The position numbers were made by a program, and so were the translations under genes. Below the pieces are notes generated by a model that ran no database searches, was not told the DNA's origin, and saw only the letters and a list, made by a program, of their open reading frames with translations. A stretch of 55,504 nt of DNA from Leptolyngbya sp. 'hensonii' (GTDB taxonomy: Bacteria; Cyanobacteriota; Cyanobacteriia; GCF-001939115). Positions 41,863 to 55,504 of this stretch are shown piece after piece (position 1 is the stretch's first letter; each line of letters opens with the position of its first letter). Location: contig NZ_MQTZ01000018.1 in the NCBI RefSeq assembly GCF_001939115.1, forward strand, positions 1-55,504. The letters run 5' to 3'.

Positions 41863-41985
41863 ATGACCCACGACTCCACGGCAATGCCTGCGGTGCTGGT
41901 GGAAGTGGGCTTTGTGACTGGGCAAGAGGATGCACCTCGACTCAGTGACCCATCAATTTTAGTCGTTAGAGCGGCTAATTTCTGA
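41863..41985 (+). pseudogene. N-acetylmuramoyl-L-alanine amidase, C-terminal fragment
   Basis: The frame from ATG 41863 reads DSTAMPAVLVEVGFVTGQED, then APRLSDPS, before TGA 41985. That is the end of an amidase_3 domain, where the VEVGF strand carries conserved residues; the catalytic zinc residues lie in the missing part. The fragment overlaps the last codons of coaT and is probably a remnant. Confidence 0.65.
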
Positions 41986-43885
41986 GCAATCGTAACCCAC
42001 TCAGAATGACCAGCACGGTTGATCCTTCATGCCCGACAACCCCAAGGGGTAGGGTGACATTACCAGCAAAATTGGCCGCAATCAGCAACATGATGAAGCC
42101 GATCGCAAATCCGATATTCTGTTTCACCACTTGGTGCGATCGCCGCCCCAATTTGACGGCCACGGCGATTTTCTCTAGCCGATCGGACACCAATACAATG
42201 TCAGCCGTTTCTAGCGCCACATCACTGCCGGCAATGCCCATGGCGATACCCACCGATGCCTGAGCCAGTGCGGGCGCATCATTAATGCCATCCCCAACCA
42301 TCGCCACCGTCTTGTATTGCTTTTGCAGGTGTCGAATCAGGCGTAACTTGTGTTCTGGGAGTAGTTCAGCATAAACCTGATCCACTCCGACTGCTTGAGC
42401 AATGCTGTGAGCGGTACGCTGATTATCACCTGTCAGCATTATGATCTGTTCAATGCCCAGCTTTTTGAGTTGGGCGATCGCCCTTGCAGCTTCAGGTCGC
42501 ACTTGATCGGCGATCGCAATCACCCCAATCGCCTGTTGCGCTTGAGCCACCCAGACTACGGTTTTGCCATCTTGTTCTAGCAAATCTGCTGATTGCACCA
42601 GTTCAATGGGGAAATCAGTAATGAATTGATTCACAAAATTGGCCGTGCCCACGCATACAGCCTGCTGCTGCCAACTCCCTGTAATACCTCGACCCGGATA
42701 CGCCTGCACTTCAGTTGCCCGTGACCAGTCTAGATCTTGGGCGGCTTGCACAATTGCGGCTCCAATCGGGTGCTCTGAACTGGATTCCAGAGCGGCGGCA
42801 ACTTGCAAGACTGCTGATGTAGAAAATCCTACTGCCGGAACGATCTGGCAAACCTGTAGCTGTCCAGTGGTGAGCGTGCCCGTTTTATCAAAGGCGATCG
42901 CCCGTACCTTACTAATCTGTTCCAACTGGGCACCGTTTTTGAACAAAATTCCCTGCCTCGCGCCATTGGCGATACCCGATAACAACGTGGGCATAATGGC
43001 TGCCATGAGCGCACAGGGCGACGCAACGACGAGAAAAATCAGCGCCCGATAGATTGTCGTTTCCCAACTCCACTGCAGCAGGAAAGGGGGTAGCACTGCC
43101 AGCAGCAGCCCCACCCCGACAATAACGCGAGCATAGCCATGTTCAAAGCGTTCAATAAATTGCTGGGAGGGGGGTATCTCAGTTTGTGCCTGCTCCACGA
43201 GTCGAATCACGCGCCGCAGTAGACTACTCTCTGGCGGTTGGTGAATTGTGAGTTTTAAAGCGCCATTGCCGTTGAGCGTTCCGGCAAAGACTTCATCCCC
43301 CACCGTCTTCTCAATCGGAATCGATTCTCCAGTAATCGCAGACTGATTCAATGTACTCAGTCCTTCCAATATCAAGCCATCGGTTGGAATCAGTTCTCCA
43401 GGTCTGACCACAATCTGATCACCCAATGCTAATTGGTCAATCGACACTGATACTGCTTTGCCCTGTCGCAACACTTGTGCGGTATCAGACGTTAAGCTCA
43501 TCAGACTGCGAATGCTGCGATCGGTGCGCTGCATGGCATATTTTTCCAAAGCACCACTGATGGCAAAAATCAGAATCAACACTGCCCCATCCACAATCAG
43601 GTAATATTCCTGTCGCCACAAGCCCAGTCCTGCGGCTCCCAGAGCTGCCACAATCATCAGCAGGTCTACATCCAGTTCTTTTTCCTGGATCAGCGTTGCT
43701 AAACCTTCACGGGCACTCTCATACCCGCCCACGACGTAAGCCGCAGGCAGAATCAACAACGCCAGTCCCAGCCATCCGAGGTGGAGGGCAATCCATCCGA
43801 GTAGTAACAGGCAGCCACAGAGGATCGCCGCAGAAGTCTCTGAGTTTTTTGCTACCAATTGAGATAGACGCAATGAGTGAAGCAT
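41975..43885 (-). CDS. coaT: Cobalt-efflux P-type ATPase CoaT (P1B-4)
   Basis: This 636-residue P1B ATPase has no N-terminal metal-binding domain. The TM metal site motif is SPC (VASPCALMAAIMP). Phosphorylation is at FDKTGTLTTG, with MLTGDNQRTAHSIAQAVGVD and [15 protein letters not shown]. The last helix has HEGSTVLVILSGLRLL, the SPC/HEGST signature of the P1B-4 group. The divergent neighbour is CoaR, as in Synechocystis. It exports cobalt across the plasma membrane. Confidence 0.88.
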   Translation of the reverse strand: MLHSLRLSQLVAKNSETSAAILCGCLLLLGWIALHLGWLGLALLILPAAYVVGGYESAREGLATLIQEKELDVDLLMIVAALGAAGLGLWRQEYYLIVDGAVLILIFAISGALEKYAMQRTDRSIRSLMSLTSDTAQVLRQGKAVSVSIDQLALGDQIVVRPGELIPTDGLILEGLSTLNQSAITGESIPIEKTVGDEVFAGTLNGNGALKLTIHQPPESSLLRRVIRLVEQAQTEIPPSQQFIERFEHGYARVIVGVGLLLAVLPPFLLQWSWETTIYRALIFLVVASPCALMAAIMPTLLSGIANGARQGILFKNGAQLEQISKVRAIAFDKTGTLTTGQLQVCQIVPAVGFSTSAVLQVAAALESSSEHPIGAAIVQAAQDLDWSRATEVQAYPGRGITGSWQQQAVCVGTANFVNQFITDFPIELVQSADLLEQDGKTVVWVAQAQQAIGVIAIADQVRPEAARAIAQLKKLGIEQIIMLTGDNQRTAHSIAQAVGVDQVYAELLPEHKLRLIRHLQKQYKTVAMVGDGINDAPALAQASVGIAMGIAGSDVALETADIVLVSDRLEKIAVAVKLGRRSHQVVKQNIGFAIGFIMLLIAANFAGNVTLPLGVVGHEGSTVLVILSGLRLLRN

Positions 43886-43909
43886 GAGCCGTGGGTAGAG
43901 AATTCTCTC

Positions 43910-43941
43910 ACCCTAAACTTTTACATTAGTGTTAATGTCAA
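43910..43941 (-). promoter_or_regulatory. coaT promoter and CoaR operator
   Basis: ACATTA-GTGT-TAATGT (43923-43938) is a perfect dyad. On the minus strand the -35 is TTGACA (43941-43936) and the -10 TAGGGT (43915-43910), separated by 20 bases. That long spacer is the MerR-type arrangement that the regulator must twist to activate. The coaT ATG is 25 bases downstream of the -10. Confidence 0.75.
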
Positions 43942-44033
43942 GCGTTGGTAGCGATGAGACTGCGATAGAATACGGAAAACTCCCCACCCATGAGCCGACT
44001 CCGCGCCGCTGGACTTGAACCAGATCTATAAAC

Positions 44034-45134
44034 ATGAGTACGTTTACCATCAAAGAATTGACGGATGCGGTTGGCAGCGGTATTACTCCCCGGATGGTGC
44101 GGCATTATCACCAGTTGGGATTAATGCCACAACCTGTGCGATCGCCTGCAAACTACCGCCTGTATACTGACCAGGATGTGCAACGCCTGCAACGCATTGT
44201 GGCACTGAAGCAGCAGGGTTTTCAGTTGTCCCACATTCACAAACTATTGGAAGCGGAGCCAGAAGCGGAACAAGCCACGCTGATGGCACAACTTCAGCAG
44301 CAGTACCAAACCATCATTCGCCAAATCACTCAATTGCGGCAGACGGCAACGGCATTAGAAGGGCTGTTGGGGCGCGATCTCCCTTGTCAAACGATGCAAG
44401 CTGAAGTCTTCTCCCAACTGAAATTGCTAGAGGTAGAAACACAGACGGGGGTGGGTGGATTGGAAAAACTTTGGTGCGGTTTAGATGCTCAAGTTCATGC
44501 CCATCCAGAAGCCTTTCAGGAATCGCTTCAGCGGTTATTGCCTGACTTGTCAACTCGATCGGAAATTGAAGTGGATCTGCTCTCCAAGCTGGTGCTAGCA
44601 TGTGGTGATGTCAGTCTGGTGCCCTTCGTAAAATTGGGGAATCGGGCGATCGCAGCGGGTCGAGATGCGCTTAAATCTGGCTGCCCGATTGTGACGGATA
44701 TTCCGGCAGTGACGGCAGCATTCGATCAAACCCGCCTGGCACATCTCAGTTGCGCCATTAAAACGCTGATTGACAATCCGCACATCACAGGTGCCGCAGA
44801 AGCCGAGCAGGAATTTTGGCGGCATCAGGGATGGCGTGAGCGACTAGAACACATTGTGGACGGGAGTGTATTGGTGATTGGCTATGCACCGTCCGTACTG
44901 CTGGCAGTGTGTGAAAATATGGCCAATCAAACGCTGCGACCCGCGCTGGTGATTGGGATGCCGATCGGCTTTAGTCATGCCCCGGCTGCAAAACGACAAC
45001 TGATGCGATCACAAGTGCCTTTTATTACGATCGAAGGGGCCTTGGGTGGCGGGCTACTGGCAGCTACGGCACTGAATTCCCTCACAGAATCTTTAATTGC
45101 GAAACCCGATTGTCACTGTTACCTAGCCACTTAA
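44034..45134 (+). CDS. coaR: Cobalt-sensing MerR regulator CoaR (precorrin isomerase-like domain)
   Basis: This 366-residue protein starts with a MerR HTH (FTIKELTDAVGSGITPRMVR, then HYHQLGLMPQP), then a dimerisation coiled coil. The C-terminal 200 residues resemble precorrin-8X methylmutase, with GCPIVTDIPAV and ALVIGMPIGFSHAPAAKRQL. The last residues contain a Cys-His-Cys motif (DCHCYLAT), the cobalt site known in Synechocystis CoaR. It activates coaT when cobalt or tetrapyrrole state demands. Confidence 0.93.
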   Translation: MSTFTIKELTDAVGSGITPRMVRHYHQLGLMPQPVRSPANYRLYTDQDVQRLQRIVALKQQGFQLSHIHKLLEAEPEAEQATLMAQLQQQYQTIIRQITQLRQTATALEGLLGRDLPCQTMQAEVFSQLKLLEVETQTGVGGLEKLWCGLDAQVHAHPEAFQESLQRLLPDLSTRSEIEVDLLSKLVLACGDVSLVPFVKLGNRAIAAGRDALKSGCPIVTDIPAVTAAFDQTRLAHLSCAIKTLIDNPHITGAAEAEQEFWRHQGWRERLEHIVDGSVLVIGYAPSVLLAVCENMANQTLRPALVIGMPIGFSHAPAAKRQLMRSQVPFITIEGALGGGLLAATALNSLTESLIAKPDCHCYLAT

Positions 45135-45455: not shown

Positions 45456-46541
45456 CTAACGTTGTCCAAACCCTTGTCCGCGTCCGACTTTCGACCAAAC
45501 CAATAGTTCGCCGTTCTGCCCCCCGGCTGCAAGTTGGTTTCCTTGAGGATGCCAGGATAGACAGGAAAAGCCATTGGGTGCGCCATTGAAAACTTGAGTC
45601 TGGCGTTTCGCCTTTTGCCACAAACAAACCCAACCGTCTGCTGCTGCTGAAGCCAGTAAAAGACTGTTCGGTTGAAATTCAATGGACTGGATTATTTCTT
45701 GATGCCCAGCGAGAACGCGACTGTCCCAGCCCTGGGCTGCGTCTGCTTGCTTTTCCCAGATGACCAGCCCTTCGACACTGGAAGCCGCCAGGAGCGGCGC
45801 ACCCGTTTTGGTCAACATTTTTGACCAAGCAAGTTGACGGATCTTGCCTGGAAAACCACGCATCACCCAAGGCAAAAGCGGTTTCTCCCATTCCAGTACG
45901 GTGATGGTGCGATCGAGATTTCCCGACGCGATGTATTTGCCATCGGGCGACCAGGAGATCGCCAGACTTGCTGAAGGAATCGTGAGCAAATAGGGGTCAT
46001 CATCCCAGTCGTCTGCCGTCCAGATTTTTACCCCCTGATACCCGCCCACACTCAACCGCTTGCCGTCAGGATGCCAGGTGATATCCAGAACTGAAGAAGT
46101 GTCGAAATTCAGGGTGGTAACGACAGCGCCGAGCGTGGCGTCCCAAACTTGCACATACTTTCCCAGGCTGAAGGCAAGGAGATTCTGGGTGGGACTCCAC
46201 GCCAAGTGATCCACCCAGGCGGTCGCATTGCCGAGCGTGGCGATCGGTTCAGGGGCTGCTGGCTGCATATGCCAAAGGTTGACCCGTCCATCTTGTCCGC
46301 CCGTTGCGAGGAATTGCCCATCCCGCGAAAACGCCAGACAGTCCACCGATCGCCCGTTGGCTGGTTGTAAATTGGTCCTTTCTAAACCCCTGCCTTGGAA
46401 CAGCACCACTTCCCCTGCGGCAGAACTAGCCGCTAAGGCATTGCCATCCGGCGTGTACGCGATCGCCGTGACATAATCGGACAGCGTTCCCTGCCAGTGT
46501 CGCTCGAACTCACCCTGGTTCTTTGTCCTTAAACCAAACAT
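45456..46541 (-). CDS. WD40-repeat protein
   Basis: This 361-residue protein forms seven WD40 blades, for example CLAFSRDGQFLATGGQDGRV, LAISWSPDGKYIASGNLDRT and CLSWHPQGNQLAAGGQNGEL. It overlaps the end of the upstream COG0523 GTPase gene by 13 bases, so it is translated with it from a Zur-boxed promoter. It may be a scaffold for metal delivery; that is inference. A fragment of a related gene is at 50354. Confidence 0.85.
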   Translation of the reverse strand: MFGLRTKNQGEFERHWQGTLSDYVTAIAYTPDGNALAASSAAGEVVLFQGRGLERTNLQPANGRSVDCLAFSRDGQFLATGGQDGRVNLWHMQPAAPEPIATLGNATAWVDHLAWSPTQNLLAFSLGKYVQVWDATLGAVVTTLNFDTSSVLDITWHPDGKRLSVGGYQGVKIWTADDWDDDPYLLTIPSASLAISWSPDGKYIASGNLDRTITVLEWEKPLLPWVMRGFPGKIRQLAWSKMLTKTGAPLLAASSVEGLVIWEKQADAAQGWDSRVLAGHQEIIQSIEFQPNSLLLASAAADGWVCLWQKAKRQTQVFNGAPNGFSCLSWHPQGNQLAAGGQNGELLVWSKVGRGQGFGQR

Positions 46542-47500
46542 GCCCGGAAATCCTCTCGCAGTTGAGTTTCATTCAAGTTGCGACCAATGAAAACCAGTTC
46601 ATTTTTGCGGGCTTCTCCTGGCTTCCAGGGGCGGTCGGCTCTGCCGTCGAATAGCATGTGAACGCCCTGAAACACAAAGCGTTGGTCTTCGCCAGCGATC
46701 GTCAAAATCCCTTTCATCCGAAAAATGTCCGGTCCTTGGGTTTGCAGCAACTTACCGAGCCACGCATTGAGCTTGTTGCCGTCTAATTCACCTGCTGCGA
46801 CGATCGCTACCGAACCGACCGTTTCATCATGCTCATGCGCCGTTTCGTTTAAGAATTCTGGGTCAATTTCCAGGGCACGATTCAGGTCAAAGGCACCGAT
46901 GCCCAAGAGCGCCTCCATCTCTAGTTCGGCGTTGCGGGTGCGATAGATTTTGGCAAGGGCATTCATGCTCCGAATCCGGCGTTCCAGTTCGTCTAGCTCC
47001 TCTGGCATGACCAGATCAGTTTTGTTGAGCAGCACCACATCGGCAAAGGCAATTTGTTCCTGCGCTTCTTCCGCTTCCCAGTGCTGCCAAATATGTTTAG
47101 CATCCACCACCGTTACAACTGAATCGAGATTGGTCTTCGCCTGTACGTCTTCATCCATGAAGAAAGTCTGAATCACGGGAGCCGGGTCAGCCAGTCCCGT
47201 TGTTTCAATCACCAGATGGTCAAACTTGTCGCGCCGTTTCATCAAGTTGCCGATAATCCGAATCAGGTCGCCCCGCACGGTACAGCAGATGCAACCGTTG
47301 TTCATCTCAAAAATTTCTTCGTCAGCATCAATCACCAATTGATTGTCAATGCCGACCTCGCCAAATTCGTTGATGATGACGGCAACTTTCTTACCGTGTT
47401 CGTGGGTGAGGATACGGTTGAGAAGTGTCGTCTTCCCGGCACCCAAATAGCCCGTGAGAACGGTTACAGGGACAGAACTTGGAATATCGGCAGCTACCAT
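46529..47500 (-). CDS. COG0523 GTPase, putative zinc metallochaperone
   Basis: This 323-residue protein has P-loop GYLGAGKTTLL, the metal-binding GCICCT (CxCC), VIETTGLADP, and NKTD (LLNKTDLV). The C-terminal domain reads KLNAWLGKLL and MLFDGRADRPWKPG. COG0523 proteins supply zinc to client enzymes in zinc limitation. A Zur-like box (47527-47541) lies 27 bases upstream. A paralog is at 54424. Confidence 0.9.
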   Translation of the reverse strand: MVAADIPSSVPVTVLTGYLGAGKTTLLNRILTHEHGKKVAVIINEFGEVGIDNQLVIDADEEIFEMNNGCICCTVRGDLIRIIGNLMKRRDKFDHLVIETTGLADPAPVIQTFFMDEDVQAKTNLDSVVTVVDAKHIWQHWEAEEAQEQIAFADVVLLNKTDLVMPEELDELERRIRSMNALAKIYRTRNAELEMEALLGIGAFDLNRALEIDPEFLNETAHEHDETVGSVAIVAAGELDGNKLNAWLGKLLQTQGPDIFRMKGILTIAGEDQRFVFQGVHMLFDGRADRPWKPGEARKNELVFIGRNLNETQLREDFRACLV

Positions 47501-47526
47501 CGGTCACGCCTCTTTGTCTAAAGAAC

Positions 47527-47541
47527 GATAATCATTCTCAA
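47527..47541. promoter_or_regulatory. Zur-like box upstream of the COG0523/WD40 operon
   Basis: CGATAATCATTCTCA matches TGATAATCATTATCA at 13 of 15 positions. The 7-1-7 palindrome is the cyanobacterial Zur/Fur-type operator. It sits between the divergent GTPase (start 47500) and the small membrane gene (47680). The assignment to Zur rather than Fur is from neighbouring gene content. Confidence 0.7.
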
Positions 47542-50353: not shown

Positions 50354-50587
50354 TTAGTCAATAAGTGCTTGACTTCCCGTAGACCAGACCAACAATTCGC
50401 CTTGTTGTCCGCCTGCGGCTAAATGGTGTCCCGTCGGGTGCCATGCCAGACAGGAAAAGCCTGCTTCTGCTCCTTCCAGGACTTGAGCCGCTTCCAGGGC
50501 GGCTTGCCACAGAATAATCCAGCCATCTTTGGACAGTGAGGCAAGCCATCCCGTTTTGGGTTGTGAAATGCCATGTTTCTTTCGCAC
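50354..50587 (-). pseudogene. WD40 protein C-terminal fragment
   Basis: The frame encodes LASLSKDGWIILWQAALEAA and FSCLAWHPTGHHLAAGGQQG, the last two blades of a protein homologous to the WD40 gene at 45456 (which has FSCLSWHPQGNQLAAGGQNG). The first five blades are missing. It follows cysS by 40 bp, so a duplicate metal-island WD40 gene once lay here. Confidence 0.8.
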
Positions 50588-50627
50588 TTAGCTCCAGAAT
50601 GGATTTTAGGGTCATGGTGATGCCTCT

Positions 50628-52139
50628 TCAAGACCGATGCCAACGGCTTTGTCCATCGGGTTGATCAATTAAAGTAATGCCCATTGCTTGCAACTCATTG
50701 CGAATGCGATCGCTTTCGGCATAGCGTTTTTCCTGCCGTGCCTGTTGCCGTTGTCGCAGCAGAGATTCAACCCAACTGACATCAATGTCTGGTTCAAGGA
50801 TGGAGGCTGGCTGAACGTCTAAACCTAAGATCTGTGCCAGGTGAGTCAGGGTTTGCAAACGCTGTTGTAACTGCCTATCGGTTAGCTCTGACGACCCCTG
50901 ATAGCTGCGTAAATTGAACTCCCGCTTCAGTGCCTTGGCGAGTTCAAACAGCACGGCTAATCCTGCTGCCGTATTCAAATCATCGTCCATTGCCGTTTGA
51001 AAACGATTGATCGATTCAGCGTCCATTGATGGGGAATCAAGGGGAGTAGGGAGTAGGGAGTAGGGAGTAGAACTATCCCATTCCCCATTCCCCACTCTCC
51101 ACTCCCCATTCTCATACTCGTAACTGAACAAAAGCGCCTCTTTCAGCGTTTGCCAGCCATTCTCAGCGGCAACGATCGCGTCTTTCGTAAAGTCCAATGG
51201 TTTGCGGTAATGGGCTTGCAGCACAAATAGCCGAATTGCCATTGGGTCAACGGGTTGGGGATAGTCTGACCACTTGCCATCCAGCAATGCTTGAATGGTG
51301 GTGAAATTGCCCAGAGATTTGGACATCTTCTCACCATTCACTGTTACCATGCCATTGTGTAGCCAGTAGTTTGCCAACGGCTGACCCGTCAACACTTCCG
51401 ACTGAGCAATCTCATTCTCATGATGGGGAAAGACCAGATCGCCTCCACCGCCGTGAATATCGATCGCCTCTCCCAAGCGTGCCCGAATCATGGCAGAGCA
51501 TTCAATGTGCCAGCCCGGTCGCCCTTCGCCCCAGGGAGAATTCCAGGCAGGTTCACCGGGCTTTGCCGCTTTCCACAGCGCAAAGTCAAACGGGTCTTGC
51601 TTATGGCACTCTGGACTATGCAGGTCAACTCGTCCGCCTGCCCCCGCTTGCATCTCTTCCAGTCGCCGTCCAGAGAGTTTTCCGTACTCTACAAACTGCC
51701 TCACACTGTAGTAAACATCGCCATCCACCGCGTAGGCATAGCCTCGATCTGCGAGTGCTTGAATCAATTGATGAATAGCGGGAATATGCTCAGTCACACG
51801 GGGGTATTCATCCGCATCCAGAATGTTCAAGCGACGAATATCTCGAAAGTAGGCAGCAATGTAGCGATCGGCAATGGCTTGCATCGAACTGCCTTCTGCT
51901 TTGGCTCGATTCAGAATCTTGTCGTCAATGTCGGTAAAATTTTGCACATAGCGCACCTGATAGCCACGCCACTTTAAATATCGCCGCACCACATCCCATC
52001 CGATGTATGAGCGAGCATGACCCAAATGGCAATCGTCATAAACCGTTACTCCACAGCAGTACATCGTGACTTTACCCGGTTCGATCGTTGTGAACGGTTC
52101 TTTGCGACGAGTCAACGTGTTGTAAATGGTTAGAGTCAT
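50628..52139 (-). CDS. cysS: Cysteinyl-tRNA synthetase
   Basis: This 503-residue class I synthetase has HLGH in CHLGHARSY, the KMSKS motif (EKMSKSLGNF) and zinc ligands as in E. coli CysRS (Cys29, the Cys of HIECSAM, and His/Glu in PHHENEIAQSE). The C-terminal DALR-like region is present. An in-frame insertion from STRR repeats (about 25-30 residues, near VGNGEWDSSTPYSLLPTP) interrupts the linker before SINRFQTAMDDDLNT. It is 41 bp after nicO. Zinc ligands are retained, so it is not a zinc-free variant. Confidence 0.94.
   Translation of the reverse strand: MTLTIYNTLTRRKEPFTTIEPGKVTMYCCGVTVYDDCHLGHARSYIGWDVVRRYLKWRGYQVRYVQNFTDIDDKILNRAKAEGSSMQAIADRYIAAYFRDIRRLNILDADEYPRVTEHIPAIHQLIQALADRGYAYAVDGDVYYSVRQFVEYGKLSGRRLEEMQAGAGGRVDLHSPECHKQDPFDFALWKAAKPGEPAWNSPWGEGRPGWHIECSAMIRARLGEAIDIHGGGGDLVFPHHENEIAQSEVLTGQPLANYWLHNGMVTVNGEKMSKSLGNFTTIQALLDGKWSDYPQPVDPMAIRLFVLQAHYRKPLDFTKDAIVAAENGWQTLKEALLFSYEYENGEWRVGNGEWDSSTPYSLLPTPLDSPSMDAESINRFQTAMDDDLNTAAGLAVLFELAKALKREFNLRSYQGSSELTDRQLQQRLQTLTHLAQILGLDVQPASILEPDIDVSWVESLLRQRQQARQEKRYAESDRIRNELQAMGITLIDQPDGQSRWHRS
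51040..51115. repeat. STRR heptamer cluster inside cysS
   Basis: GGGAGTA is repeated three to four times from 51041, and inverted, diverged copies (CCATTCCCCATTCCCC) follow to about 51115. It is the same heptamer as at 55404-55504. It stays in frame and adds residues to CysS. Confidence 0.85.
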
Positions 52140-52180: not shown

Positions 52181-52951
52181 TTAGACGATTGAGAACATCG
52201 TGAGTCCAATTCCGGCACACATAATCACAATTGCACTGACGATCGAGAGCTGCCGCCCTAACTGCTCAGGTGCAGCAAATTGATCAAGCCACTGTTTGGC
52301 ATAAAGCACCAGTAGCCCGACAAAGACCAGCACCGATGCCATCCCAGCGCTAAAACCGCTGACCAGAAATAATCCGTAAGTGGTTTGGTGGAGCGCGATC
52401 GCACTCAGCAGCAAAACCAACGCCGAGGGGCAAGGCACCATTCCTCCCGCAATGCCCAAGCTAACGAGGGATGCCATAGAAGTATCAGCAGAGGGATCAG
52501 ACGAAGGCTCGTGATGATGGGCTGAACCCACTTCATGATGATGGTGATGAGAGCAATGATCAGCTTCTGAATTCAGGCGGCGCTGAAGCAACCTCACCCC
52601 AACTCCGCAAACCGTTAGCCCACTGATTACACTCAGAACTGGATATAGCTGATCTGGAATCACATACTGTGAAGCGAAAAGTACCCCAAGCCCCAGCAAA
52701 AAGATGGTCAACGTGTGGGTAATAGTCGTCACCAGACCCAAGAGAATAGCGTGTTGAGGAGTGCCTCGCGCACCTACCAAATAGGCGCTAATCATGGTTT
52801 TCCCATGCCCCGGTGCCAAGGCATGAATGGCACCCACGCCAAAGGCGATCGCGATGCCTGCCGATATAGTGCCAAAGGAAGGCGGAGATTCGAGTAAGCC
52901 AGTCAGCCGCGAGGCATGATCCAGATGGGCTAGGATAGGCAGTTGTTGCAT
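52181..52951 (-). CDS. NicO-type metal transporter
   Basis: This 256-residue protein has six TM helices. The first NicO signature is HALAPGHGKTMISAYLVG. A cytoplasmic or periplasmic loop (about 130-155) is rich in histidine (HCSHHHHHEVGSAHHHE). The second signature is GGMVPCPSALVLLL. NicO/RcnA proteins move nickel, cobalt or zinc, and the direction is uncertain. It is divergent from the CcmM-like gene across a perfect Zur-like box and leads into cysS. Confidence 0.82.
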   Translation of the reverse strand: MQQLPILAHLDHASRLTGLLESPPSFGTISAGIAIAFGVGAIHALAPGHGKTMISAYLVGARGTPQHAILLGLVTTITHTLTIFLLGLGVLFASQYVIPDQLYPVLSVISGLTVCGVGVRLLQRRLNSEADHCSHHHHHEVGSAHHHEPSSDPSADTSMASLVSLGIAGGMVPCPSALVLLLSAIALHQTTYGLFLVSGFSAGMASVLVFVGLLVLYAKQWLDQFAAPEQLGRQLSIVSAIVIMCAGIGLTMFSIV

Positions 52952-53048
52952 GTTGATGTCCTCACACCTTCAACATTAAGAGCGGTACAGGCTGACTCAA
53001 TTGAGCCAAGCATACAATTTAAGCACTCCTTTTCAAGTATGATTAAAA

Positions 53049-53063
53049 TGATAATCATTATCA
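53049..53063. promoter_or_regulatory. Perfect Zur-like box
   Basis: TGATAATCATTATCA is a perfect 15-bp palindrome (7-1-7), identical to the cyanobacterial Zur consensus as I recall it. It ends seven bases before the ATG of the CcmM-like gene (53071) and is 98 bp from the NicO start, so it could repress both. Confidence 0.8.
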
Positions 53064-53070
53064 TACTAGC

Positions 53071-54018
53071 ATGGACATCCACAGCATTCCTGCCCCGCCA
53101 ACTCCCTGGTCGCAGCAACTGGTTGAACCGACGATCGATCCCAGTGTTTACATCCATCCATTGACCAATGTGATTGGGGATGTCCGTATTGGCGAACAGG
53201 TGCATATTGCACCAGGGGTCTCGATTCGTGCTGATGAGGGAATGCCGTTTTACATCGGAGCTAATGTCAACATTCAAGATGGGGCAGTCGTTCATGGGTT
53301 AGAGCAAGGGCGCGTCACTGGTGATGATGGCAACCCTTACTCGGTGTGGATGAGTGACAATGCCTCAATCACTCATATGGCGTTGATTCATGGTCCTGCC
53401 TATGTGGGCAAGGGGTGTTTTATTGGATTCCGTTCCACTGTGTTTAATGCCCGTGTCGGGGATGGCTGTATTGTCATGTCCCATGCGTTAATTGAGAATG
53501 TGGAGATTCCAGCGGGCAGGTATGTGGCATCTGGCTCGGTGATTATCCATCAGCAACAAGCCGATCGCTTACCCAATGTCCAGGAAGCCGATTCAACATT
53601 TGCCCGTCATGTCGTCAGCATCAATCAAAAACTACGTCAGGGCTATCTCTGCGCTGAAGATCAGGTCTGCATCGCTACCATTCGCAATGAACCAAACGGA
53701 CACCCAACCGTTCAGCCTGCTTCTCGCAACGGACATCGCCCATCCTTACCTCTAGATGCTCAAGCGATCGCCTGGATTCGAGAGGTATTGAGCCAGAAAT
53801 TTTATATTGGCGTGGAACAGGCGGATACGCGACGGTTTCGGGCAAATTCCTGGTCAGATTGCGGCGTGATTAAAGTGACGCAGGAAGAGGAGGCGATCGC
53901 CGCAGTAGCACAACTTCTACAACGTTATCCACATCAATATGTGCGTCTGTTTAGCATCAATCCTGGAACTCGACAGCGAGGTAGTGGTTTAGTGATTCAA
54001 CAGCCCTTGGAGAAGTGA
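53071..54018 (+). CDS. CcmM-like gamma-carbonic anhydrase with one SSLD
   Basis: This 315-residue protein has an N-terminal left-handed beta-helix (20-200) with His75, His102 and His107, the zinc positions of Thermosynechococcus CcmM. The C-terminal region (about 230-313) is a RuBisCO small-subunit-like domain ([17 protein letters not shown] and [11 protein letters not shown]). Full CcmM normally carries three to five SSLDs; here only one. It may be a paralog expressed when zinc is scarce. The assignment to carboxysome assembly is uncertain. Confidence 0.85.
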
Positions 54019-54073: not shown

Positions 54074-54421
54074 TTACTTTGTTGAAAGTGAAACTGAATT
54101 AAAGAAACAACTTCTGGCTCCCGTATGGCAGGCAACATTGCCCACCTGCTCAATTTTTAATAGAAGCGTATCGGCGTCACAGTCGTAATAAAACGCTTTG
54201 ACTTTCTGAATATGTCCAGACGTTGCCCCTTTATGCCACAGTTCTGCACGCGATCGGCTCCAGTAATGGGCTTCTCCTGTTTCTAAGGTTCGATGAATCG
54301 ATTCACGGTTCATCCATGCCATCATCAAGACGGTATTGTCCAGATAATCTTGGGCGATCGCTGGAATCAAGCCCTGTTCGTTAAACTTAAGCTGTTCTAT
54401 CCACAAAAAAGTTTGATTCAT
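54074..54421 (-). CDS. hisI: Phosphoribosyl-AMP cyclohydrolase HisI
   Basis: From ATG 54421 it has 115 residues; an ATG at 54442 would overlap the upstream gene. The motifs are [42 protein letters not shown] (Mg2+ site) and [11 protein letters not shown] (Zn2+ Cys). It opens the ring of phosphoribosyl-AMP in histidine synthesis. It is three bases from the end of COG0523, so the pair is an operon. Cyanobacteria often carry a HisI paralog in their zinc regulon; the zinc ligands here are retained. Confidence 0.9.
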
Positions 54422-54423
54422 CG

Positions 54424-55389
54424 TCACAATCGGGTTAGACAATTATTCAATGTTTGAATCAAAAAGAGAGCATCCAGTTTGCGCCCAATCAGTACCATCT
54501 GGTTTTTTGGAGCAGCCGTCCATTCACTGTCATCAATTGTGAACCGCTTGCCACTGAGTTGAAACAGATGTCGTCTAGGGCTTTCAGCGAACCAGAGTAC
54601 CCCTTTTGCTCGAAACACATTGTCAGGAAGTTGATAATCTAAAAATTGCTGAAATTTCTTCAAGGCAATGGGGCGATCGCTTTGAAAGGATACGGACATG
54701 AATCCATCGTTGTTCAGGTGCTGGGTGTTTAGGTTTAGTTGTGTTCCGGAGTCTAGAGAAGCATCAATTGTAGAAAGATTGATATCAAGAATTAGGGATA
54801 GCGGTACTTTACCGTGCTGCGATCGTAAAATCCGAGCACGCTCTTTCACAGAATGGAGATAATCTTCTAACTCTTTTACTCTTGATTCCGTGACTAAATC
54901 CGTTTTATTCAGCAGAATCATATCCCCATACAAGATCTGATTCATCGCGGCACCACTGTTGTAATGCTCAGAAGGCGTAAAGGTTTCGGCATCAACAACG
55001 GTCACGATCGCATCTAACTGGGTTAAATCCCTCAACTCTGTTCCTAAAAACGTCAGGGCGATCGGCAAGGGATCTGCCACTCCAGTGGTTTCCACAATTA
55101 AATACTCAATCCGATCCTGCCGTTCCAGCACCCGGTAAACTGCATCCGCTAAGTTGTCATTAATGGTGCAACAGATACAGCCATTTGTCAGTTCAATCAT
55201 GTCCTCATCAACGGCAATTAAGAACTGACTGTCGATGTTAATGTCACCAAATTCATTCACTAAGACAGCGACTTTGTAGGCTTCAAAGTTTTGCAGGATG
55301 TAGTTTAACAGCGTTGTTTTACCACTACCTAAGAAGCCGGTGATGATGGTGACAGGGAGCCTGGTGTCGGCTGTTGAGAGATTAGACAT
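54424..55389 (-). CDS. COG0523 GTPase, second paralog
   Basis: This 321-residue protein has [27 protein letters not shown] and LLNKTDLV. The C-terminus reads [20 protein letters not shown]. It is about as long as, but clearly diverged from, the copy at 46529. It is followed at once by hisI, and a zinc chaperone beside a zinc enzyme is the expected pairing. Its promoter should lie in or beyond the heptamer repeats at the window end. Confidence 0.9.
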
Positions 55390-55403: not shown

Positions 55404-55504
55404 GGGAGTAGGGAGTAGGGAGTAGGGAGTAGGGAGTAGGGAGTAGGGAGTAGGGAGTAGGGAGTAGGGAGTAGGGAGTAGGGAGTAGGGAGTAGGGAGT
55501 AGGG
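55404..55504. repeat. STRR heptamer tract (GGGAGTA)n
   Basis: At least 14 tandem GGGAGTA heptamers run from 55404 to the window end without interruption, directly upstream of the COG0523 start codon. This is a cyanobacterial short tandemly repeated repetitive sequence. Copy number may vary between cells. Confidence 0.97.

Follow-up and report, generated by a model that had tools for sequence, protein, structure and literature searches.

A satellite CcmM-type carbonic anhydrase gene under a predicted Zur box in a zinc island of Leptolyngbya sp. 'hensonii'

A single-SSLD ccmM gene outside the carboxysome locus

The window, meaning the whole stretch of 55,504 nucleotides analysed here, represents contig C18 of the 5.94-Mb genome of Leptolyngbya sp. 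'hensonii' and holds at 53071..54018, on the plus strand, a gene that we designate ccmM' (satellite CcmM) and that encodes a protein of 315 aa. Its anatomy can be read directly: a gamma-carbonic anhydrase (gamma-CA) domain (aa 8-193; 53092..53649, plus strand) is followed by one RuBisCO small-subunit-like domain (SSLD, aa 229-312; 53755..54006, plus strand), Pfam detecting the hexapeptide repeats of gamma-CA and, at aa 229-312, one RuBisCO_small domain, and the start codon is common to the orthologues. The NCBIfam CcmM model spans the protein end to end with 481 bits, below its cut-off of 550, while the top structural match of the gamma-CA domain is 3kwc (327 bits), whose record is titled carbon dioxide concentrating mechanism protein and which we take to be the CcmM of Thermosynechococcus elongatus. 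The predicted fold is settled, since the protein matches solved chains of both CcmM and SSUL. The first-pass annotation had described a CcmM-like carbonic anhydrase with one SSLD under a Zur-like box, and the open reading frame, the Pfam domains and a zero-mismatch box (a predicted site) bear this out.

With CcmM sensu stricto the protein shares the N-terminal gamma-CA domain, but it carries one SSLD instead of three to five, lies away from a ccmKLMN locus and scores below the NCBIfam cut-off. It has everything that characterizes the satellite single-SSLD form, namely a gamma-CA domain with one SSLD, a place outside the main locus and a full ccmM in the same genome. That full gene, whose presence the first-pass annotation had proposed to check, was found on contig C46 in the order ccmK-ccmK-ccmL-ccmM-ccmN-ccmO; it encodes a gamma-CA domain with intact metal ligands and four SSLDs, and has no such box. 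Since a full ccmM lies elsewhere, ccmM' is not the sole, zinc-independent ccmM that the same annotation had named as fatal to its reading. The genome also encodes four beta-carbonic anhydrases, one of which, on contig C2, looks to us like CcaA. On contig C67 there is a RubisCO-activase-like protein with a terminal SSLD, a domain thought to recruit the activase to RuBisCO (PMC5853843); it resembles ccmM' in using one SSLD for recruitment to RuBisCO and differs in its partner enzyme and in that no zinc island was seen with it.

Satellite ccmM genes with one SSLD are known in Leptolyngbya, Acaryochloris, Microcoleus and Rubidibacter (Long 2011; PMC5853843), and so far their products have had a suggested role only, either recruitment to RuBisCO or extra CA activity (PMC5853843). 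In architecture, location outside the main carboxysome locus and coexistence with a full ccmM they are the same as ccmM', but a link with zinc is unreported for them, whereas ccmM' is placed here in an island marked by Zur boxes. Of what the first-pass annotation proposed, the Zur link is strongly supported by comparison; the single SSLD in itself is not unexpected, such genes having been described before. We found no paper joining Zur and carboxysomes in a literature that included few subscription texts and no supplements, so that the zinc link of satellite ccmM appears to be new, although it may have been remarked on before, in a regulon database for example. No relative of the full-length protein was found in the viral contigs and phage records searched, and within the taxonomic order of the source organism the search returned its own genome only. 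Two satellite proteins, WP_105218317.1 (L118 15001-15954) and WP_261891833.1 (L119 15001-15936), carry the database name 'ribulose bisphosphate carboxylase small subunit', which derives from the SSLD and is misleading.

A predicted Zur box at the promoter of ccmM'

The predicted Zur box, TGATAATCATTATCA, occupies 53049..53063 and is a perfect palindrome (0 mismatches) ending 7 nt before the ATG of ccmM'. A -10-like hexamer, TATGAT (53038..53043, plus strand), was read from the sequence as a predicted promoter element; it would put the predicted transcription start inside the palindrome, and TATnAT-like hexamers stand at about the same position in the orthologues. With a matrix trained solely on the boxes of other zinc genes, the ccmM' box scores 26.2 bits, whereas none of 3000 random 400-nt pieces drawn from the window exceeds 9.7, and the shuffled window yields on average 2.2 sites even when three mismatches are allowed. 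Among the matches listed for the genome the perfect box occurs twice, once before ccmM', and the five sites listed with at most one mismatch precede ccmM', thrS2, an FTR1 iron permease gene and genes for a SufE-like and an FAD monooxygenase-like protein. With two mismatches allowed, sites are also seen at hemB2 and its divergent zur-like neighbour, at a COG0523 gene and at the gene for a zinc-ABC binding protein; the box before the second COG0523 gene of the window, at 47526..47540, has two mismatches. Among the matches listed there are at this level 24 genome sites, as opposed to 11 when the pattern is reversed, which means that part of the weaker sites are due to chance. This set resembles the Zur regulon of Anabaena PCC 7120, where Zur controls hemB2, thrS2, COG0523 genes and zinc uptake genes, a list without a ccmM paralogue (PMC6103462).

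The genome scan returned twelve relatives among the matches listed. The box was present before all nine scanned satellite genes for which upstream DNA was available, at 7 nt from the ATG except for one at 12 nt; if ccmM' itself and a gene on a Gloeocapsopsis plasmid are counted too, it stands at 7-12 nt in 11 of 11 satellites of the window's type, L008, L009 and L016 belonging to one MAG and hence not being independent. In four close genomes of the Acaryochloris group the box has two mismatches and lies between 62 and about 165 nt upstream, and the plasmid satellite gene of A. marina has a perfect box at 343 nt. Overall the palindrome occurs within 400 nt upstream of 16 of the 18 satellite genes; no box was found upstream of the L126 gene, and in L127 it lies only before a gene 3.5 kb upstream of the satellite gene. 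The satellite boxes score 18.7-26.2 bits with the zinc-gene matrix (maximum of the random 400-nt pieces 9.7, n=3000). By contrast, the 430 nt upstream of the main ccmM, read in the correct orientation, contained the box in none of 36 distinct genes, the best site having four mismatches. A conserved Zur-type palindrome at the promoter, as expected of a member of the Zur regulon, is therefore found for ccmM' as a predicted site.

The zinc island in the window and in relatives

On the minus strand upstream of ccmM' lie cysS2 (50628..52139), a second cysteinyl-tRNA synthetase gene 61% identical to the main copy on contig C49, and a gene for a NicO/RcnA-like Ni/Co transporter (52181..52951), divergent from ccmM' and with the box 98 nt before its start. 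The transporter gene stands between cysS2 and ccmM' in the window only, being absent there in the relatives read; it has its intergenic region in common with the box and may be co-regulated. Downstream, also on the minus strand, follow hisI2 (54074..54442), a second phosphoribosyl-AMP cyclohydrolase gene whose other copy is part of a 220-aa frame on contig C43, and, overlapping it, a gene for a COG0523 (CobW/ZigA-like) GTPase (54424..55389); the second COG0523 GTPase gene lies at 46529..47500, minus strand. Just outside the window, past the COG0523 gene next to hisI2, come hemB2 and a divergent zur-like gene of the Fur family. The genome encodes two Zur-like Fur-family proteins (C19:166645 and C18:56771; L090, L091), of which one is in the island beside hemB2. 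Both have as best PDB match 7ne9, a record named only as a Fur-family regulator, which we take to be the structure of Synechococcus Zur described in PMC9337993.

The order cysS, ccmM', hisI, COG0523, folE, COG0523 recurs in L009, L012 and L014 and partly in L017 and L019, some relatives adding a SufE-like gene and thrS after the second COG0523 gene, and differs on the downstream side of ccmM' in L008, L010 and L016; the place of the box before ccmM' stays fixed across these loci. The islands of relatives also hold folE, thrS, pyrC and znu. Two cultured strains have the island on a plasmid. In Gloeocapsopsis dulcis AAB1 we read cysS, ccmM', hisI, COG0523, folE, COG0523, a TonB receptor gene and thrS; the island on pREC2 of Acaryochloris marina MBIC10699 comprises two folE, pyrC, metH, cysS, a zinc ABC transporter and COG0523, and 31 kb of it hold eight sites with two mismatches or fewer, of which two overlap each other. 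With the class of Zur-regulated zinc isozymes (Haas 2009) ccmM' has in common that it is a second copy of a zinc enzyme gene clustered with COG0523, while its metal ligands are unchanged. A parallel set, zigA, folE2, hisI, gamma-CA, pyrC and thrS, is found on an Acinetobacter haemolyticus plasmid. In Proteobacteria a Zur-linked gamma-CA (Cam) accompanied by other spare zinc enzymes has been described, together with the idea of an iron enzyme (PMC2770081); as in the islands here, the clusters combine gamma-CA with COG0523, HisI, PyrC, ThrRS and CysRS paralogues under Zur boxes, but the proteobacterial gamma-CA is plain, having no SSLD, whereas here a carboxysome-type protein fills that slot.

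Active-site residues and descent

The first-pass annotation stated that all three zinc histidines are kept, and H75 (53293-53295), H102 (53374-53376) and H107 (53389-53391), all plus strand, are indeed present, together with the Cys194 to Cys200 redox pair of active CcmM (53650..53670, plus strand). The alignment with the solved chain 3kwc is free of gaps, so that numbering is common, and all five residues occur in both; ccmM' is thus like this CcmM and main CcmM in gamma-CA fold, the three histidines, the cysteine pair and the SSLD, and unlike them in lacking three to five SSLDs and a ccm operon and in having a predicted Zur box. All three histidines and both cysteines are kept in 13 of 13 aligned satellites, and four more, judged by reading, have identical motifs. 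Among main CcmM proteins the histidines are kept in 37 of 37 and each cysteine in 32 of 37. Histidines alone are no proof of activity, given that the CcmM chains 7d6c and 7o4z, which we take to be those of Synechococcus elongatus, retain them and that the gamma-CA of this species is cited as non-functional. The cysteine pair is the better sign. Through the Cys194-Cys200 disulfide, the CcmM of T. elongatus is inactive under the reducing conditions of the cytoplasm but active inside the carboxysome (PMC13249358). The residues of a catalytically active CcmM, three metal histidines and Cys194/Cys200, are therefore all found in ccmM'. As the metal ligands are identical to those of main CcmM, the sequence gives no hint of a different metal.

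The gamma-CA domain tree separates the satellites from the main genes and places them in two groups, with ten sequences belonging to the window's type and three to that of Acaryochloris; it fits one origin of the satellites as well as two. Between the genome of the window and seven others the satellites are 88-97% identical, versus 66-82% for the main genes of the same pairs, and this higher identity, together with the plasmid locations, points to horizontal transfer of satellite ccmM, although stronger constraint on the satellites could add to it.

A probable backup carbonic anhydrase for zinc starvation

It is very probable, on the sequence evidence, that ccmM' belongs to the zinc-starvation genes, and its regulation by Zur is well supported by comparison. 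With regard to its function, the first-pass annotation had offered a substitute carbonic anhydrase, a zinc store or a RuBisCO-binding factor, and the first of these appears to be the best reading for a gene that sits in a Zur-box island of second-copy zinc genes and has its catalytic residues kept. We consider it likely that ccmM' is a Zur-repressed backup carbonic anhydrase, active and directed by its SSLD to RuBisCO and the carboxysome in zinc starvation. When zinc is sufficient, Zn-Zur would occupy the palindrome, where transcription would start, and so block ccmM'; zinc starvation would release ccmM' along with the rest of the island's spare zinc-enzyme genes. The protein would form the usual gamma-CA trimer, whose three protomers would bring three SSLDs, and we propose that these are enough for docking to RuBisCO and packing into the carboxysome. 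The Cys194/Cys200 pair would let the enzyme work in the carboxysome and silence it in the reducing cytoplasm, and we further propose that this redox gating spares the cell a cytosolic carbonic anhydrase leaking bicarbonate as CO2. Were a plain carbonic anhydrase active in the cytoplasm, it would undermine the CO2-concentrating mechanism, which would explain why a carboxysome-type enzyme occupies the Zur-linked gamma-CA slot in cyanobacteria. Its metal may be Fe or Co, with which the gamma-CA Cam is able to work, or else scarce zinc, held more tightly or supplied by COG0523. It is tempting, if rather speculative, to go further and to suppose that zinc starvation remodels the cargo of the carboxysome, an Fe- or Co-dependent carbonic anhydrase being loaded through its SSLD from a kit that is carried on plasmids among cyanobacteria together with spare zinc-enzyme genes. 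Found among zinc-starvation genes, the satellite CcmM acquires a directly testable function, and carbon fixation is tied to metal supply.

Several points speak against a backup enzyme: besides ccmM' the genome encodes a main CcmM whose ligands are intact, as well as four beta-CAs; the metal ligands of ccmM' do not differ from those of main CcmM; a perfect box also precedes an FTR1-type iron permease; and the box is missing in L126 and distant in L127. One may argue that ccmM' is under zinc control but acts mainly as a RuBisCO or carboxysome assembly factor, catalysis being incidental; every full-length satellite retains its SSLD, and in several cyanobacteria the gamma-CA domain of CcmM is described as inactive and structural (PMC13249358). 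We regard this as unlikely, for the three histidines and the redox cysteines persist in all aligned satellites, and the proteobacterial islands hold a gamma-CA without any SSLD. The RuBisCO-binding factor of the first-pass annotation is probably correct for the SSLD, which would serve in targeting, but not for the main function of the protein. A zinc store or buffer is hardly credible: ccmM' is a predicted metal binder among zinc genes, but each site has three ligands, there is no extra metal-binding or metal-rich stretch, and a store would be made in excess of zinc, so that one placed behind a starvation box makes little sense; we reject this role.

As for regulation, the palindrome might be a Fur box, with ccmM' answering to iron and not to zinc. 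Fur and Zur boxes look alike, near copies precede the SufE-like gene and a FecD-like permease gene, and the second perfect palindrome of the genome (C43:121508-121522; L069) precedes the FTR1-type iron permease, which is either zinc-controlled itself or served by Fur through an identical site, so that the palindrome alone cannot separate Zur from Fur. Control by iron nevertheless seems quite improbable, because the box travels with the zinc genes zur, hemB2, thrS2, COG0523, hisI, folE, pyrC, cysS and znu, and in L012, L014 and L019 the SufE-like gene is itself inside a COG0523 operon. There is very little to be said for a chance palindrome or for a passive hitch-hiker, an ordinary duplicate ccmM devoid of a zinc role: the islands are mosaic and mobile and ccmM' is a second copy, but box scores far above the null and a fixed box position before ccmM', despite varied downstream neighbours, lead us to reject chance. 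We therefore retain a Zur-repressed backup carbonic anhydrase as the preferred reading of ccmM'.

Other features of the islands

A gene for a WD40 beta-propeller protein recurs in the islands (L008, L009, L010, L015, L016, and the window at 45456-46541); it adjoins cysS2 in relatives and overlaps the end of a COG0523 gene in the window, where 50358-50615, beside cysS2, appears to be a truncated WD40 remnant. Two further genes are found repeatedly next to ccmM' in the islands, one for a FeoB_N/Gate GTPase-permease, the other for an FAD (Pyr_redox_3) oxidoreductase (L013 4272-5912, L127 1890-3527, L010 580-2373). The L013 contig (JAAUUT010000021.1) is labelled Candidatus Gracilibacteria; since it bears a cyanobacterial island and its assembly also has a main ccmM, the label or the bin is probably wrong. 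Some 8 kb from ccmM', at 41975-45134, a P-type ATPase gene is divergent from a MerR-CbiC fusion gene, like the CoaT/CoaR cobalt efflux pair, and tandem gggagta repeats occupy 55410-55504 before the COG0523 gene, between that gene and hemB2.
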